From positions 1,693,897-1,757,896 of the forward strand of contig MU004184.1 in the NCBI GenBank assembly GCA_010093605.1: 64,000 nucleotides of DNA. Direction: 5' to 3'. A model generated the notes under the pieces. The model was given only the letters and a program-made list of their open reading frames with translations. It searched no databases and was not told the DNA's origin. Below, one piece after another: positions 2,986 to 51,283 of the stretch. The stretch's first letter is position 1; every line of letters begins with the position of its first letter. The position numbers were made by a program, and so were the translations under genes. Origin of the DNA: Lophium mytilinum (lineage: Eukaryota > Ascomycota > Dothideomycetes > Mytilinidiales > Mytilinidiaceae).

Positions 2986-3189
2986 TATAAATATCACGAA
3001 GTCTTCGAATTGCTACCCACTATGCAAACCGCTTAGCACGTAGTTTCTACATTCCTGACGAGATAACGGTTACAAGTTCAATAAGCGTGATATCTTGGAT
3101 TCGTGACTTCTGGGACTATTACACGATCTATGCGAAGAAGAAGTCCTTGCAGTAAGTACATGATGACACTAATTCACAATACAGTGCTG

Positions 3190-4062
3190 TGTTATAAGTC
3201 TGGGCGCATGGATATACAACTGCTTCAACTTTAGTCCTGCTCACTCAATACCACTGTAAGGAGCACCCCAGCTAACGAGTAGTCGGTTGGCCAAGAAGTG
3301 GTTCAATATTAAGGGGATAGACCTTGACGCTGCGTCAGAGTAGCTATAAATGCGGCAGTGAGGTATACCGCATCATGAGTGCTATTTTGGAAGCTGGTTA
3401 CCACTGTTAGGAGTACCCCCGCTAGCAGGTATTCGACTGACTAAAAGGCAGTCTAGTATCTACTATGTAAGCCTGAACATTGTGTTAGAGTAGCTATAAA
3501 TTCGGCTAGTCAGATATACCGTCTCATGAGTGCTATTTTAGAAGCTAATTACCACTGTTAGGAGTACCTCCGCTAGTAGGTAGCCGACTGACCAAAAGGC
3601 AGTCTAATATCTACTGCGTAAGCCTTGATGGTAGTTTAGAGTAGCTATAAATGCGGTTAGTTAGATATGCCGCTTTATGAGTGCTGCTTTGGAAGCTAGT
3701 TACCACTGTTAGGGGTAGCTCCGCTGGCAGGTAGCCGACCAACTAAAAGGCAGTCTAATATTTACTGTGTGATCCTTGACATTTGGTTTAGAGTAGCTAT
3801 AAGTCTAGCTACACGGATATGAGCACGCTTGAGTGCTGCTTTGCAAACTACCCGACACTGTCAGGAGTAGCTCCGCTAGCAGGTAGCCGACTGATCAAAA
3901 GGCAGTCTAATATTTACTGTGTAAGCCTTGGTATTAGTTTGGAGTAGCTATAAGTCTAGCCGCATGGATATTAGCACGCTTGAGTGCGACTTTGACAGCT
4001 ATACAACACTGTCAGGATGTGACAGCGTTGATGAGTCACTGCGAACGTTACGTTCAAAGCCT
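3190..4062 (+). repeat. tandem array of ~151-bp units, left arm
   Basis: About five imperfect units plus a partial one. The recurring phrase ACTGTTAGGAGTA starts near 3250, 3400, 3551, 3702, 3853 and 4004, a regular spacing of 150-151 bp. Each unit also has GCTAGCAGGTAGCCGACTGA, AAAAGGCAGTCTAATAT and GAGTAGCTATAAATGCGG-like phrases. A TATAAA or TATAAG therefore recurs at about 3193, 3345, 3495, 3646, 3799 and 3949. The last unit runs into a sequence at about 4018-4062 (TGTGACAGCGTTGATGAGTC...) that recurs inverted at the far end of the right arm. The array lies directly upstream of the J-domain gene. Copies diverge by many substitutions, so it is not recent. Confidence 0.85.
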
Positions 4063-4232
4063 CTACCTTCACTTCTCGTGCCACGTAGAAAGGAGTGTCA
4101 ACAACTCGAGAATACCTATATATTGTCCGCAGAACGCAAATCTAGGAACTTATACTCCTGAACTTACTGCCGAACGCTGCAACATCAAGCATAAAACACA
4201 CAATATCAATCTTCGAGAAGCATTCGGTCACT

Positions 4233-5735
4233 ATGACTGGCTATCCTTTCGAACGCCCCGGCCGCGCTGGCATGTCCCCGATGCAGATATACCTTGACAT
4301 GCTGGGGGCAGAGCGAGTTCCTCCGGACTCACCCTTCTTGCGTCCTTTCCCAAGGCCTCAATCAGAGATCGAGGTATTGGGAGATTTCTATATGGAGATC
4401 TTCGGACCCAAGCCAGGACCTGAGAAGCGAGAAAAGCTACGCGCATTCCAAAAGATTCAGCATGTGCTTGGAATGCGACCTAGAGAGATTATGTACATCA
4501 AACTTTTCTACAGTTTGGATATCTTCCTTTTTGCTTCCGAGCTAGGGCACCGTGTATCCCTCAGTCTGGGAGAGGATCACCCGAAGATGTCGTCCTCGGT
4601 GCATAAAATACAGCGAGGCCGCATAGGTCTCATGATGAACAAAGCAAACACCCGCAAGAATGGCCCTGCCTTGCACTGGGGACGATTCCTTCACGCCCTG
4701 GCCCACGCTTTCTTGGAAATCGAGCTTGGCAGACATGTTGACTGCGGGGGACTCGGTCGCGTACACGAGCATGTCTTCTACGCACTCATGTGCATCATAG
4801 ACGACGCTCTGAACCGAGAAGTGCCCATCGTCAGGTTCGGCAAGATGGACGCGTACTGGATCTATGACTTCGGGAACTCGTGGTACCGCGACTTCAAGCG
4901 CTCCATGGCTGCTGATCTCCGTGGTCAGCGTGGTCCCCTTCATGAGGGGTATGGAGGGGTTCCTGGTTTCGGCGGCTTCGGTGCCCATCCCTTCAATGCG
5001 AATGCCTTCGACAAGTTTGCGTATCAGGAGGAAGACATGGATCAGCGCTTCCCCTCCTGGTTTGGCCAAGACCCCGATTTCGTCGACGAAGACAGTGATC
5101 TGGACACCGACTTCGAAGATGAAGTAGAATTCGGGTTTGATCCGTTCGGGTCTCCTCCCCCAGGGGGCCGTAGCTACGGCAAAGGGGGTCCGGGAAAGAA
5201 CTCGGACAGGGCCGACGGAGAAGGTGGTGGCCGCGAGGGCTTTGACAACTCCAAATCTGGACCTGGGAGCCGTGGCGGTTCTGGTTCGGGCAGACGCGGT
5301 GACTTCGACAAAGAGCGCGGTGGCTACGGCGGCGGGTATCGTAGTGGCTTCGGAGGCGGATCTCGTGGGGGCTTCGACGACGAATTTCGCGATCGTTTCG
5401 GGAGTGGCTTTCGTGGCGGCTTCGGAGGCGGATCTCGTGGTGGCTTCGGCGGCGGGTTCCGCGGTGGCTTCGGTGGAGGTGGATCAAACTTCGAGGGTGG
5501 GAAGCCCAAACTCGAAATCGATCCATATAAGGTCCTTGGCCTCACCCGGAACGCAACTGCGGCCGAGATCAGGAAGGCCTACCACAAGATGGCCAGAGAC
5601 AATCACCCGGACCGTGTTCAAGGAGGAGAGAAGGAGAAGGAGGAGGCCAATAAGAATATGGCAGATATCAACCTGGCACATGAGGTTCTCAGCGATGAGA
5701 AGAAGAAGCAGGACTACGACAATGGATTGTTGTAG
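4233..5735 (+). CDS. degenerate SprT-like domain plus Gly-rich linker and C-terminal J domain
   Basis: Single-exon gene of 500 residues. Residues about 90-200 resemble the SprT-like metalloprotease fold of fungal orphans: LFYSLDIFLF, then LHALAHAFLEIELG at about 153-166 and GLGRVHEHVF about 15 residues later. In active SprT proteins the first motif is HExxH; here it is HALAH (154-158), so the catalytic Glu is absent while the His residues remain. An acidic run (DEDSDLDTDFEDEVEF, about 280-295) and a Gly/Arg/Phe-rich low-complexity region with repeated GGFGGGSRGGF units (about 300-425) follow. A J domain occupies about 427-500 with LGLTRNATAAEIRKAYHKMA and the HPD tripeptide, so Hsp70 stimulation is plausible. 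The gene is enclosed by inverted arrays of a ~151-bp repeat. The J domain is sure; the SprT-like origin is inference. Confidence 0.8.
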   Translation: MTGYPFERPGRAGMSPMQIYLDMLGAERVPPDSPFLRPFPRPQSEIEVLGDFYMEIFGPKPGPEKREKLRAFQKIQHVLGMRPREIMYIKLFYSLDIFLFASELGHRVSLSLGEDHPKMSSSVHKIQRGRIGLMMNKANTRKNGPALHWGRFLHALAHAFLEIELGRHVDCGGLGRVHEHVFYALMCIIDDALNREVPIVRFGKMDAYWIYDFGNSWYRDFKRSMAADLRGQRGPLHEGYGGVPGFGGFGAHPFNANAFDKFAYQEEDMDQRFPSWFGQDPDFVDEDSDLDTDFEDEVEFGFDPFGSPPPGGRSYGKGGPGKNSDRADGEGGGREGFDNSKSGPGSRGGSGSGRRGDFDKERGGYGGGYRSGFGGGSRGGFDDEFRDRFGSGFRGGFGGGSRGGFGGGFRGGFGGGGSNFEGGKPKLEIDPYKVLGLTRNATAAEIRKAYHKMARDNHPDRVQGGEKEKEEANKNMADINLAHEVLSDEKKKQDYDNGLL

Positions 5736-5779
5736 GCTCGGTTTGCTAGCTTGAATTAGACTGCTTCTTGGCCTAGTTA

Positions 5780-6181
5780 AGACTTGTAGGCGGAGCTACT
5801 CCTGACAGTGCTATTGGGCGAGCAATAGTGAAGCACTAGCGCTGCTATATCCTATTTAGTCTCTGAGCTTGTAGCTTTCACATGCTTGATAGATATAAAG
5901 ATTAAGGCAATACATATTAAGATACCTCTTGGCCAACCGGCTCCCAACTCGCTAGAGTGCTCCTTGCAGTGACGTCGAACGAGCAAGAACTGAATGCGAG
6001 TAGTAGGATTCACAAGTGCCCAGGTACTTTTACACTCTAGCTACGGGAAGGCCAGCGGAGTAGAAATAAAAGTAGTTTTTTTAGCCAATACTTGCTCGTT
6101 CAGCTACTCCTAGCAGTGTCGTATAGTTTGCAAAGCAGCTTTGAATGTAACATTCGCAGTGATTCGTCAACGCTGTCACAT
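5780..6181 (-). repeat. inverted right arm of the 151-bp repeat family
   Basis: Degenerate copies of the left-array unit in opposite orientation. GGAGCTACTCCTGACAGTG at about 5794 is the reverse complement of the unit start. A second copy at about 5926-5973 (TTGGCCAACCGGCTCCCAAC...) matches the most divergent left unit, near 3250-3298. A third, at about 6101-6140, reads CAGCTACTCCTAGCAGTGTC. The block at 6137-6181 is the inverse of the left arm's inner edge at about 4018-4062, with GCGTTGA-GA-TCACTGCGAA conserved. The stretch between 5736 and 5780 is the short 3' flank of the J-domain gene. Confidence 0.75.
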
Positions 6182-6474
6182 ACCTCCCGTAGCCTGTGAA
6201 TGAACTATGCTTAATTTGTATTGTTGGCAATGCCTTTCAAAAGGATACTGCGTTTCTTCAATACGTTGTAGATAAAGTGACACTACCCCGATCTGCGTAC
6301 ACTGTGTTACCACTGCTTAGGTACTTTGATCTTCTTTTAGAACGAGCGTAGAATGCGAAAGGAGGTTTGGGACTCACTATAGTAATTCCCGTGGACTTTT
6401 GTCGCCCAGCGTGACCCCAGGCTACCCTAGGCAGTGGTAGAAGCCGCTGAAAGATATTGTTGTCTAGCAAATTG
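6182..6474. other. short intergenic, no gene seen
   Basis: Just under 300 bp between the outer edge of the right repeat arm and the 3' end of the AP endonuclease gene, which is read from the opposite strand. No conserved frame or repeat was found. Confidence 0.4.
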
Positions 6475-7629
6475 TCATGATGCGCTGTCTGGCCTTGATG
6501 ATTGCGACGTCGGTAAAGCTTTCTGCGCCGAGTGCGTAGTCTTCGCATAATCTTCGCTCTGCTCTTCTCGTTGGTCTGCTCCTATCTCTACCCACAGCGG
6601 AACATGATCGCTCGGTCCCCTTTCTTCTGCGCTGTCCAAGATACCAGTGTCAAGAACACTCCCAGCTCTGAAAAAGCGTCTACTGGCAATGATTAGATCT
6701 ACTCGATCACAACTACTACCCCAAGGCGCGCTCCTCGGGAAGTAAGTATATCGTCTCTCAGATCCCTTCAGTTCCCTCCAAACATCTGCTGCTTGTAGAC
6801 CGTCTTCGTCCTCAAAAAACTTGGCATTGAAGTCTTTTCGATTTTTGACATGATCTTCGGGGATTGTACGTAAACCTGGCCAACCATCCAGTGTACTTCT
6901 CGCAATATTTAAGTCTCCAGCAAGAATCACATTCCCGCCCTGTGCTTCTATGCTCTTGCTTTCTTCGAGTAACAGCTTATGAAAAGCAACCTTGCGGTCA
7001 TGCCTAGTACCGACTACGGCTCCGGTGGTGGGCGATCGATATGGGTTATTGGTTCCATTGACAGCATAGATGTTGAAAATGGAAATCTCTTGCTTCAACT
7101 CAATGATATGAACTCGGCCCTCAAGGTCCCAATCCACATCCCTGATCTCCGTAACGGATGAATCAAAGAAATCTGAACGGACAATGCTAGCGACACCATA
7201 AATTCTCCCACCGAAGCCCGTTGCGTTATGGGCATCTCGGGGAAGCGTGAAATGCACCACGTAGCTTGGGCCGTCATCGTCGGATTGACAAGGTCGATTT
7301 ACGGCAACACGAACGGCTCTTTGGGTAGTTTCATCGTTATGGCTAATCTTCACCTCTTGTAGGAGAAGGAGGTGAGGCCAACGATGGCGGAGAAGGAATG
7401 CGCGGAGAGAGCATTGCTGAGAGATAGTGGAAGAAGGTGTCGCAGCACTTTTAAAGAAGTTTGTTATTGCTTGCTGTAGGAAAGGTTTAATTCCATTGAT
7501 GTTCCACGCGAAGATGCGAATGCTTTGAGAGCTGTTAACGGGAGCTGGCGTTTGGTTTTTCGGATTGGCGTCAGACGGCGCAGGGAGCTTTCTCCGTTTA
7601 CGAGGTGGCGGGCTGATATCTCGGTCCAT
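6475..7629 (-). CDS. exonuclease III-type AP endonuclease (EEP family)
   Basis: Single-exon gene of 384 residues in the endonuclease/exonuclease/phosphatase superfamily. This family cleaves the DNA backbone 5' of abasic sites in base-excision repair and needs a divalent metal. The catalytic motifs appear in order: WNINGIKP (about 43-50), LLLQEVK with the metal-binding Glu (about 90), GRVHII, NIYAVNG with the active-site Tyr/Asn, GDLNIA, CDRVDLI and the C-terminal SDHVPLW with the catalytic His. A Lys/Arg stretch in the first 15 residues (RKRRK) looks like a nuclear signal. It is shorter than fungal Apn2 (which carries a zf-GRF tail) and resembles the APEX1/ExoIII class. The C-terminal 40 residues are polar and probably disordered. 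Its 3' end faces the inverted repeat arm. Confidence 0.9.
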   Translation of the reverse strand: MDRDISPPPRKRRKLPAPSDANPKNQTPAPVNSSQSIRIFAWNINGIKPFLQQAITNFFKSAATPSSTISQQCSLRAFLLRHRWPHLLLLQEVKISHNDETTQRAVRVAVNRPCQSDDDGPSYVVHFTLPRDAHNATGFGGRIYGVASIVRSDFFDSSVTEIRDVDWDLEGRVHIIELKQEISIFNIYAVNGTNNPYRSPTTGAVVGTRHDRKVAFHKLLLEESKSIEAQGGNVILAGDLNIARSTLDGWPGLRTIPEDHVKNRKDFNAKFFEDEDGLQAADVWRELKGSERRYTYFPRSAPWGSSCDRVDLIIASRRFFRAGSVLDTGILDSAEERGPSDHVPLWVEIGADQREEQSEDYAKTTHSAQKALPTSQSSRPDSAS

Positions 7630-8943
7630 GTCGCCGATTGATCTTGATCCGTCAGCTTGCTATGAGCAGTCGTTTGTTGATGGATTTTGATGAGCAGTAA
7701 AGGGCATTGAGGTTAACGAGGTAGCAAGCAACAACATACTACATCACGTGATATACAGGTCTGCCGCCGCTTGGTATTCTCCAATCTATTTTGGAAAACC
7801 CGATCTTGATCGATTAGAACAATCAGTAAGCTTGCCGGGCCACCTCATGCAATGGCTAACTTATGTATGCACACTTAGCTATGTCGCTCGTCGCACCAGA
7901 CTTCTATACACATGTTGGATCTCCACAAGCAGTGGCAGAACAATTTGTGAATCAATGACTAGTTTTTGTATATTACTACCAAGCATGAGAAGAGCTACGT
8001 CTATATAGCGTGATGACCAGGCCCCCAAGGAATTTTCAAGTCCTCCGCCAAATCAGTGAAAGCCCTACTGAAACCGTGGTATTAGCAATCGAAGAAGAAG
8101 AGTCTGCTGAATACGATGGGTAAAGTGATGGAGTTCCTCAGTGATCTTGGTGTAATTATGTAATCAGTCTCCGAAGAGTCATTTACTATCTAGGCGTGAT
8201 AATGTTGTAATCATCGGAAGGGTGTTGTGTCGACCGAAAGAGATGTTGTCTTACCTTACATATTGTTAGGCCACGAAGGCTTACGAGACCTGGTCGACGT
8301 GAAAAATCTGCTTGAGTGAGCATCCGATACCACAATGTGCTCGGCCTTGTGTGTTCGGCGAGCTACATCGTGGTCGTCATGTCGCGTCGATTAGCAGAAA
8401 AGAACGCGACGATCTAAGACGAGGGCATCTGAAACCCGCAAGGCGGTGGAAGCGGAGCAGCTACATCTTCGAGGAGTTAGCGAATGCATCTAACAGACTC
8501 TGCGCGAGGAATTGGTGTTGGTGAGTTGGTATCAGAATATGTAAGAATGAATATCATAGCCCCGACGCCGTTAAGAAGCCCCGGCGAGGGCTTCCGGTCG
8601 CCAGAGTCAATCGCAAATTATTTCATCACGAGAGATGGGTGCGGAGGAGGAAAGCGTGGAACTTACAAGTTGGTTGATGTTGGTTGAAGAGAAGAGGAAG
8701 GCTCAAGGACTGAAGATGCAGAAGGCAACGAAAAGTTCCAACTCGCTTAAGGGACTTGGCGCACTAATTTTCTATTCTCCCGAATATTTCCCGCCCACCG
8801 TTGCAATTCGAATCCAGGTTCTTGAGATTCACGACATCACACCTCCAGCCTCACCTCAACACACGACAGTACGTGCAACTCCTCAGAATACCGACTGCTG
8901 TGTTCTTCTCACTGATTACGGCGAGCAGATTCAAACAGTCGCA
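7630..8943. other. intergenic, no gene seen
   Basis: About 1.3 kb between two divergently transcribed genes (AP endonuclease and RPL14). It contains a TCACGTGA palindrome near 7745, the type bound by bHLH factors such as Cbf1/Pho4 homologues. An open frame from about 8635 runs into RPL14 exon 1, but only the part from 8944 is conserved. Confidence 0.5.
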
Positions 8944-48866: not shown

Positions 48867-51283
48867 TCAATTGGGGAAGCCGAGTGAGAAGGGAGAGGTT
48901 GGTTGAATCTCCAACCTGTTGGGGTTCGGAGCGCCAAGGCGGGTGTGGCCAGCCTGGGTAGGAGTGGCATTCTCGTCGTCGAAACTTCGTTTTGCAGCCA
49001 CCGGAGTGCCGCGACGTCTGTCTGACATACCCGTCATTGAATTTTTGCTGCTAGCTGAAGAGGACATAGCTCCTGATCGATCCTCAAAGCTTGGCGCAGC
49101 CGTGGAACCAGTCAAGCTAGAGGTACGAGGACCGAAAGATGGAGCATGAGCTTTGGACTGGGACTGAGATTGGGTGCCGTAATAGGAAGACTGTGGCTGG
49201 ACGTGAGACTGGCCACCGTAAGATGAAGCCTGTGACTGGGCCTGGGTTTGGCCACCGTATGAGGAAGCCTGCGACCGGGCCTCGACGTCCAAGCTTGAAG
49301 GATGCGAGTAAGACTGGACACCGTATGAGGAAGCATGCGGCTGGGTCTCAACGTCCAAGTTGGAAAGATGCGAGCGGGCCTCGATCTTCTCACGCGCCTT
49401 CAATTCCGCCGCCAAGTACTCTTTCTCCGTCCAGCATCCCTGCCAACAGTTGCGCCAGTCAAGCACTAGGAATTGGAAGCAGAAAGCGTCGATCTTCATG
49501 CACGGCTGGAAGCAGATGCACAAGTTGCGGTAGTCCATTTTGTTTTGTTCGGAGCAGGAATGGAGCAAGGAGATGTGGCACGTGATCGCGAATAGAAGAT
49601 AGTAGTGGTACGGCGGGAGCTTCGAAAGCTCATCCTTGAGCAGCTGGGGTGTGCTCTTGGCGCCCGGACATTCTTGCTGGATTTTCGCCTGGATGGCTTT
49701 GGGGAAGATCTCATCGGGGATATTGCGCAGCCAGTTCTTGAACATCGAGCCGATGATGTTGATGTCGTATAGCTCAGGCTCGTCGAAGAGGTTGATATCG
49801 AGCTCTGTAGTAATTCATGAGCTACTGCTACTGCACGCATGTACAAATAATTGGCAATCTCACCTTTGTCGAATCGCTGCTCCCAGTATTTGATTTCCCT
49901 ACCACTGCCGGGAACGCGGTACAGACCCTCTTCCTCGCAACCTTTCATGTTGAGGTAACTACATGTACGGTTAGCGCTGGCTCATTGAGCATAGAGAGCT
50001 ACTCACTCGATGCATCGCCATGGCAGAGCAGGCATCCAGAACTCGGTCTTGTCCTTTGAGTTCTCGAGACGCTTGGATATGCGAGTCTTTAGGGTCTGCT
50101 CAATCAACGGCTTGTTGATGACTTGGATCTCGTGCTCAACGGTTGGAGCATCCTTGTCGTTGGAACTACCAGTTCGGTGGAGTTTGTCAAACATAGCTCG
50201 GGCACCCTTCCCCAATCCGTCTGCGGCTTTGGTAGAGCCTGTCTTTATGGCGGTCATGAAGGATCCACCGCGGGGTTCGTTGTATGATGAGGACAGATGT
50301 TGCTCCCCCGTGTTCGTAGCCCGGGCGTCTTCTGAGTGGCCTCCCTTGTGGCGATCTTCGGAGTGAGTGCGCATTCCGCCGATGTTCATGTTCTGTCGCC
50401 ATGACCTCTGGCCCTCCAAGGGCGCAGTCTTCATGTTGCCCGTGTCTTTGGACTCGTCATATGCTGCGGTGTTAGTCTCAGCAAGGCGCCTAGGTATGTT
50501 AGCCTTGAGTTTCGAACGTGGTGCTTCAGGGCGTGGTGAGATTGACTCATCCACTTTGATTGACCTTGATCGACCCAAGATTCCTCCGAACTTGTTCTTG
50601 CTGGTGCCGCCATTTTTGTTGGCGTTATTCTTCTTGTTGACGTCAGCGTTCTTGTCGGCGGCACCGTTCTTGTCGTTCTTGCGTTTGCCGAAAGCCATGT
50701 CGCTGTTGAGATAGGGGACGCTGGTCGACTTTATGGATCCGCTGTTGCTACGTTCGTCTGATCCGTCTGCGGTAGACGTCGCACCTATGCCAGTCAGAAT
50801 CGAAGCTTCATGGGGGTGAATCGGTAGCGCACCGTTCCGCTGACTCGAGCTGTCCTGTGAGCGGCTGCTCAACTCCGGACTGGAGCTCTGCTTGTGCCCT
50901 GAGGGGTAAACTTGGCTTGCTGAAGATTTGGAATCAGTAACTTGTCGCAACGAACCATCCGCTGTCCCCAGGCGTGGCGACGACGACGACGTGATCCTCG
51001 GCGACGACTTTGAGGCTTTGATGTTGGCGAAGAAGGTGCGTGAGCTCTCTTTGCGGTGTCGAGGCGAAGTAGGCGAATCTGGCGGCTGGAACGGAGCTAT
51101 CGGCGTCGATTGATCCGGCTCACGAAGCGCGTCGCTGTTAAGCGCGTCGGCGTCATATCTGGACCCTGATGGTGGAGGCGATTGAGGACTTCGCGGGCTC
51201 AGCGCTTGGGTAGGCTTCCCCTCTTTGTGTTTATTCGTCCTCGCGGGCAACGTCGTTATGGAAAGGGAGGATGACTTCGGCAT
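48867..51283 (-). CDS. RhoGAP-domain protein with Ser-rich N terminus and SSYG-repeat tail
   Basis: GTPase-activating protein for Rho-type GTPases, acting in polarity or actin control. Exons 51283-50007, 49958-49864 and 49804-48867 give 769 residues. Residues 1-400 are Ser/Pro/Lys-rich and probably disordered. The RhoGAP domain (about 405-570) has PWRCIDYLNMKGCEEEGLYR, where EEGLYRVPGSG holds the arginine-finger region, then KNWLRNIPDEIFPKAIQ, LKDELSKLPPYHYYLLFAI and KMDYRNLCICFQPCMKID. The C-terminal third repeats SSYGxQ-like units (QASSYGGQTQAQSQASSYGG), a prion-like composition. The tail resembles fungal RhoGAPs related to S. cerevisiae Bem3/Rga types only in the GAP core. Confidence 0.9.

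Follow-up and report, generated by a model that had tools for sequence, protein, structure and literature searches.

Arrays around a J-domain gene of Lophium mytilinum are probably relics of a dispersed, tandemly multiplied MITE family

Introduction

The closest described relatives of the repeat reported here come from fungi and from Drosophila. In Fusarium, the mimp elements, Tc1/mariner MITEs paired with impala, are reported as 180–220 bp (PMC5579170) or 200–220 bp (PMC3599309) in the available excerpts of those papers. The excerpted account of Zymoseptoria tritici (Mycosphaerella graminicola) gives TA target sites for 8 of 13 MITE families and a higher prevalence of MITEs in gene-rich regions (PMC4522978). 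In Drosophila, the element Tetris carries internal tandem repeats of ∼220 bp in its terminal inverted repeats (TIRs), and a route from transposon to satellite-like DNA has been reported (PMC4079207, in part). A related MITE, DAIBAM, has been implicated in inversions (PMC6278893, in part). When an inversion arises by staggered breaks, a stretch that was once single-copy ends up at either end of the turned segment, the two copies facing opposite ways, as described for Drosophila in the excerpt of PMC3355041.

We analysed a stretch of 64,000 bp from contig MU004184.1 of Lophium mytilinum (assembly GCA_010093605.1), referred to below as the window. In this stretch a single gene lies between two arrays of a ∼151-bp repeat in opposite orientation (Table 1). 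We conclude that the arrays were probably left behind by a scattered family of non-autonomous, Tc1/mariner-type MITEs and that the gene between them is a likely bystander.

Table 1. Features of the array locus, in window positions.
Feature	Position	Strand	Evidence
Left terminus of left element: TA at 3180–3181, terminal repeat from 3182	3180..3208	+	
Left array of ∼151-bp units, five complete and a sixth partial	3209..4017	+	TRF, iterated profile, core listing
44-bp sequence, left copy of inverted pair	4017..4060	+	Inverted-repeat search, 91%
Single-exon ORF, 500 aa, uninterrupted	4233..5735	+	Translation, Pfam, genome protein search
J domain, residues 430–496, HPD present	5520..5720	+	PF00226 E 2e-18, above cut-off
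Right array of three degenerate units	5752..6138	-	Iterated profile, core listing
44-bp sequence, right copy of inverted pair	6138..6181	-	Inverted-repeat search, genome pattern search
Further eroded element of the same family (missed in the original prediction)	6273..6437	-	Inverted-repeat and core listing

Results

Two arms in opposite orientation that are not mirror images

The left arm contains the tandem units of ∼151 bp that the original prediction described: TRF reports an array at 3337–3953 with a period of 151, 4.1 copies and 80% matches. An iterated profile resolves six units on the + strand, the sixth partial, at successive spacings of 151, 151, 151, 152 and 151 bp. Their cores start at 3251, 3401, 3552, 3703, 3855 and about 4006. 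The arm opens at 3180 with an element-type end that had previously been missed, reading TA followed by CAGTGCTG (TA followed by CAGTGCTGTGTTATAAGTCTGGGC across 3180–3208; the element-type end itself is TA followed by CAGTGCTGTGTTATAAGTCTGGG). At its other side the array stops 11 bases past the start of the final core, and the closing end found in complete copies is absent.

At least three degenerate units in opposite orientation had been predicted for the right flank, and three are found on the - strand, with spacings of 161 and 146 bp and core starts at 5811, about 5972 and 6119. Outside them lies a further eroded element whose closing (B-type) end runs from a TA at 6273–6274 and whose A-type core starts at 6437 on the - strand; no second terminus could be recognised for it.

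The predicted inverse copy of the left arm's inner edge exists as a 44-nt pair with 91% identity, and its right copy sits at the outer edge of the right arm. Since the left copy lies on the inner side of its arm, the two arms do not mirror each other. A genome search with a 28-base part of the 44-bp stretch, allowing up to 3 mismatches, found two places, both at this locus, and a control search found none. As the stretch is confined to this locus, both arms appear to share a local event, and we infer, with less confidence than for the MITE family, that the two sides took part in one local rearrangement.

The gene between the arms

The enclosed ORF consists of an N-terminal part that includes HALAH, a Gly-rich spacer and a C-terminal J domain. 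The DnaJ domain and the HPD tripeptide in the translation identify it as a J-domain protein, in agreement with the predicted single-exon gene with a C-terminal J domain, and the predicted HALAH motif is likewise present. The SprT-likeness was not borne out: residues 1–230 match no Pfam family at E values up to 10 (a search in which the tool dropped most matches above about 0.1), and a single-sequence fold of the N-terminal part is unusable (mean pLDDT 36). With neither a Pfam match nor a usable model, the term SprT-like is a reading of the HALAH motif. There is no second copy of the gene in the genome. The 26 other genome matches listed for the 500-aa protein all fall within query residues 418–500, the J domain and its edge, and no further match was found outside the J domain. 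A search of viral contigs found no relatives of the protein.

The repeat is dispersed through the genome

We searched the 43.18-Mb genome (24 contigs) for the core ACCACTGTNAGGAGTAGCC with up to 3 mismatches and found 872 places (445 forward and 427 reverse), as compared to 38 (19 and 19) for a control with the reversed pattern. The repeat unit occurs at 59 or more BLAST places genome-wide, a minimum obtained with 40 of 128 candidates scored. We then read 15 stretches around other repeat matches of the first search (14 of ∼9.9 kb and one of 5.1 kb) and eight smaller loci; these 23 loci were picked by similarity to the repeat and are biased towards arrays. With the profile, 167 units in 44 arrays were identified in the 23 loci and the window. 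None of the 44 arrays (0/44) overlaps an intronless ORF of at least 200 aa, a count that covers intronless ORFs only.

A pair of inward-facing + and - arrays that encloses an ORF of at least 150 aa is found in 2 of the 15 other loci, L013 and L023. The ORF enclosed at L013 matches the UTP15 C-terminal family of Pfam; UTP15 is a housekeeping protein of ribosome biogenesis. The ORF enclosed at L023 matches no Pfam family at E values up to 0.01. The repeats are thus not specific to the J-domain gene, since inward-facing arrays surround unrelated ORFs elsewhere. Nor do the data support the originally predicted mobile or amplifiable unit around the gene, because the repeat occurs genome-wide without the J-domain gene, which is unique outside its J domain, and because arrays lie around other ORFs. 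Genome-wide occurrence without the gene is an outcome that the original prediction itself named as its refutation, and an association of the repeat with the gene is refuted. Most likely the position of the arms around the J-domain gene is incidental.

Several further repeats were observed. The arrays at L013:5–259 (65-bp units) and L017:7918–8543 (units of ∼181–214 bp) have a core like CACCGTNAGGGGTACCC and little else in common; they are perhaps sister families with the same core. The motif TTAGYCAYTGYRTGAGGTGGCCCGGCAA is common to window position 7855 (- strand) and L010:4433 (- strand), and may represent another terminal type akin to the core. The window also contains tandem repeats of 39 and 66 bp at 49156–49374.

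Structure of the element

Listing the cores by strand revealed two types: many arrays close with an inverted one, the inverse of CCACTGCTTGGGGTACCCC, which comes after the A core (CCACTGTNAGGRGTAGCC). The span from the A core to the inverted closing core is 124–125 bp in 13 of 19 hand-picked pairs; the remaining six, at 102, 120, 130, 132, 243 and 310 bp, fall off the 125-bp rule. Beyond the closing core the sequence resembles the inverse of the unit head, and the better kept copies reach CACTG and then TA. An extended pattern of this closing end occurs at 20 forward and 19 reverse genome places and at none on either strand in the reversed control.

Three single copies, L061, L062 and L063, picked because the core and the closing pattern lie close together in the genome listings, were read whole. 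They measure 227, 217 and 216 bp, and all three (3/3) have terminal inverted repeats, which agree at 18, 23 and 24 of 28 positions, respectively. With the termini placed partly by eye, TA abuts five of the six ends (both ends in 2 of the 3 copies) and CG abuts the sixth. In a loose terminal-motif scan of 177 rows, many of which are inner units or chance matches, CAGT occurs 13 times at −13 and at most 3 times at any other offset. In the same scan TA occurs at −15 in 29 rows, as compared to 8.4 expected, and also 27 times at −6 and 28 times at −2; we ascribe the latter two peaks to the TAGCTA that inner units themselves carry ahead of TAAGT. Empty sites of the family were not encountered, and at a single locus a 2-bp target-site duplication is inseparable from chance. 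The inverted ends, the flanking TA and the CAGT starts together fit the build of a Tc1/mariner-type MITE.

Judging from these copies, a complete element measures ∼216–227 bp. Its first terminal inverted repeat, ∼28 bp long, follows a TA, in most cases begins with CAGT and passes into ATAAGTCTGGGCACAC. Next come an inner core ACCACTGTNAGGRGTAGCC, some 100 bp of body and an inverted core GGGGTACCCCAAGCAGTGG; the second terminal repeat closes the element with CACTG and is followed by another TA. In many copies the 5′ part, of ∼151 or 162 bp and less often 107 or 129 bp, appears to have been multiplied in tandem, which would account for arrays such as the left arm. The copies were presumably spread by a transposase supplied in trans and later decayed, and the two arms would be such elements, in opposite orientation, beside a bystander gene.

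Candidate partner transposases

The genome contains 14 DDE_3 places, all with in-frame stops, and 10 DDE_1 places, 9 of them with in-frame stops; introns were left out of account in both counts. In the 4 of the 14 DDE_3 places that were read there is no transposase with ends of the MITE type, and no impala-like partner was found among them. Two of these four have clear inverted repeats, which differ from those of the MITE family. A 1,295-bp stretch at L058:664–1958 has a DDE_3 match and identical 52-bp inverted ends starting with TACACTCTCCC; it is perhaps a different, younger Tc1/mariner family in the same genome. The sole stop-free match among the ten DDE_1 places, at 244271–244780 of a 588,212-base contig (C23), lies in an open frame of 426 aa and is possibly a younger element.

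Origin of the inverted arrangement

Two histories of the local rearrangement have to be weighed. Two independent insertions in opposite orientation, followed by local inverted copying or gene conversion of ∼44–90 bp between them, have in our estimate slightly less than an even chance of being the true course. Among the loci read, the nearest relatives of the two arms differ: the five left units are closest to one another, and the two inner pieces of the right arm are closest to an array on contig C14 (79% over 160 bp and 87.5% over 56 bp). In the whole genome, the best match of the right flank elsewhere is also on C14 (76% over 326 bases). Clustering of elements is common, with at least two arrays in 11 of the 15 fetched loci, and towards its outer side the right arm is similar to the left one (inverted matches of 82% and 91%); the cost of this history is the extra conversion event. 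Alternatively, a small inversion of about 4018–6181 may have split one array, turned the gene and left inverted 44-bp copies at both ends through staggered breaks. The single-locus 44-bp pair, inverted and 91% identical, is one piece of support for the predicted proneness of the locus to inversion, and flipping the segment back would bring all units into the same direction. The same signature is described for Drosophila inversions (PMC3355041, in part), and a MITE is implicated in 8 of 9 Drosophila inversions in the excerpt of PMC6278893. Against an inversion, the closest relatives of the inner right units among the loci read lie in the C14 array and not in the left array, and by arithmetic the rejoined array would contain a unit of ∼74 bp, which is absent from the observed spacing classes. 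A small inversion may thus perhaps have carried the J-domain gene, and we regard this course as possible yet on the doubtful side. A broader, speculative proposal builds on it: the ∼2-kb inversion that turned the J-domain gene and left the 44-bp inverted scar would have had a breakpoint in a tandemly multiplied fungal MITE array, and one-sided, self-multiplying arrays of this sort could quite generally give rise to small gene inversions in the genome. We consider this reading rather unlikely.

Two further explanations give the arrays or their contents a role. A mobile unit with the 44-bp inverted repeats as its ends (4018–6180) could carry the J-domain gene as cargo, as the 91% identity of the inverted ends and the TA adjoining the right end might suggest; the restriction of these ends to one locus, the single copy of the gene and the lack of a target-site duplication (GA flanks the left end, TA the right) disfavour it, and we hold it to be extremely improbable. 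Alternatively, the arrays could be functional host DNA, acting as boundary, promoter or nucleosome-phasing modules under selection. Here the core is better conserved (80% identity to the consensus) than the 5′ part of the unit (64%) and the stretch between (68%), in 123 of 126 hits from units found via the 3′-part profile alone, at loci whose choice by whole-unit similarity introduces some bias. Core spacings also give a power of 74 at 10.7–10.75 bp (n = 125). The terminal-repeat structure accounts for the core, and conservation of the core would agree with a site that transposition required during the active life of the family. The periodicity is gone once each of the 18 spacing classes is counted a single time, and helical phasing was rejected (P = 0.57 over the 18 classes and 0.98 over the 10 of them shorter than 180 bp). 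TATAAA or TATAAG does occur at a matching position in all six left units, as predicted; it is found in neither of the two right units with the head in view and in only 19 of 134 such units over all loci and the window, mostly as a local feature of the left array. It sits where the terminal repeat has ATAAGT. Since TATAAR is a terminal-repeat remnant in this minority of units, the proposed promoter or boundary modules are not supported, and a host function is in our judgement very unlikely.

Other candidate properties of the arrays were rejected. No conserved pairs indicative of a structured RNA were found across 60 units. An RNA gene was rejected on a single Rfam match over 3000–6500, at 13.7 bits against a threshold of 50. 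The TA/AT index is 1.84 and 1.58 in the arms versus 0.74 in the whole window; as the unit consensus itself has an index of 1.78, the value in the arms proves nothing on RIP in these copies, and RIP was rejected as the cause of the TA-rich index.

Discussion

A common dispersed repeat can produce the striking picture of a gene held within inverted arms. The relics described here present a case in which the 5′ part of a MITE has multiplied in tandem, the kind of path by which transposon sequence can turn satellite-like, as reported in Drosophila (PMC4079207). The locus also offers one place where a comparison of strains could test for a small inversion at a MITE array.

The original prediction knew of no described element of this type; MITEs have been described, as have elements that, like Tetris (PMC4079207, in part), contain internal tandem repeats. 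Among the papers listed by a literature search for fungal MITEs with internal tandem repeats, none was recognised as describing this family, which leaves its absence from print unproved. Membership in the mimps was rejected: none of 12 termini (0/12) matches the published 16-mer, with 2–9 mismatches, and in the loci read the 16-mer has no match at up to 1 mismatch and 14 at up to 2, as compared to 8 for the reversed control.

The family is of a known kind, MITEs, and is apparently a new one. It is like the mimps in size, CAGT ends and non-coding body; mimps are described as uniform in size in the available excerpts, whereas many copies here contain multiplied units. The Zymoseptoria tritici MITEs, compared by description alone, are likewise fungal, and the excerpt mentions no internal tandem units. 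Tetris and DAIBAM, a Drosophila foldback element and a MITE with shared ends, are non-autonomous and have internal tandem repeats, as here, in a comparison of architecture and not of sequence. They differ in host and, according to the excerpts, in carrying tandem units in both TIRs, in contrast to the one side that is multiplied in the closed copies of the Lophium family.
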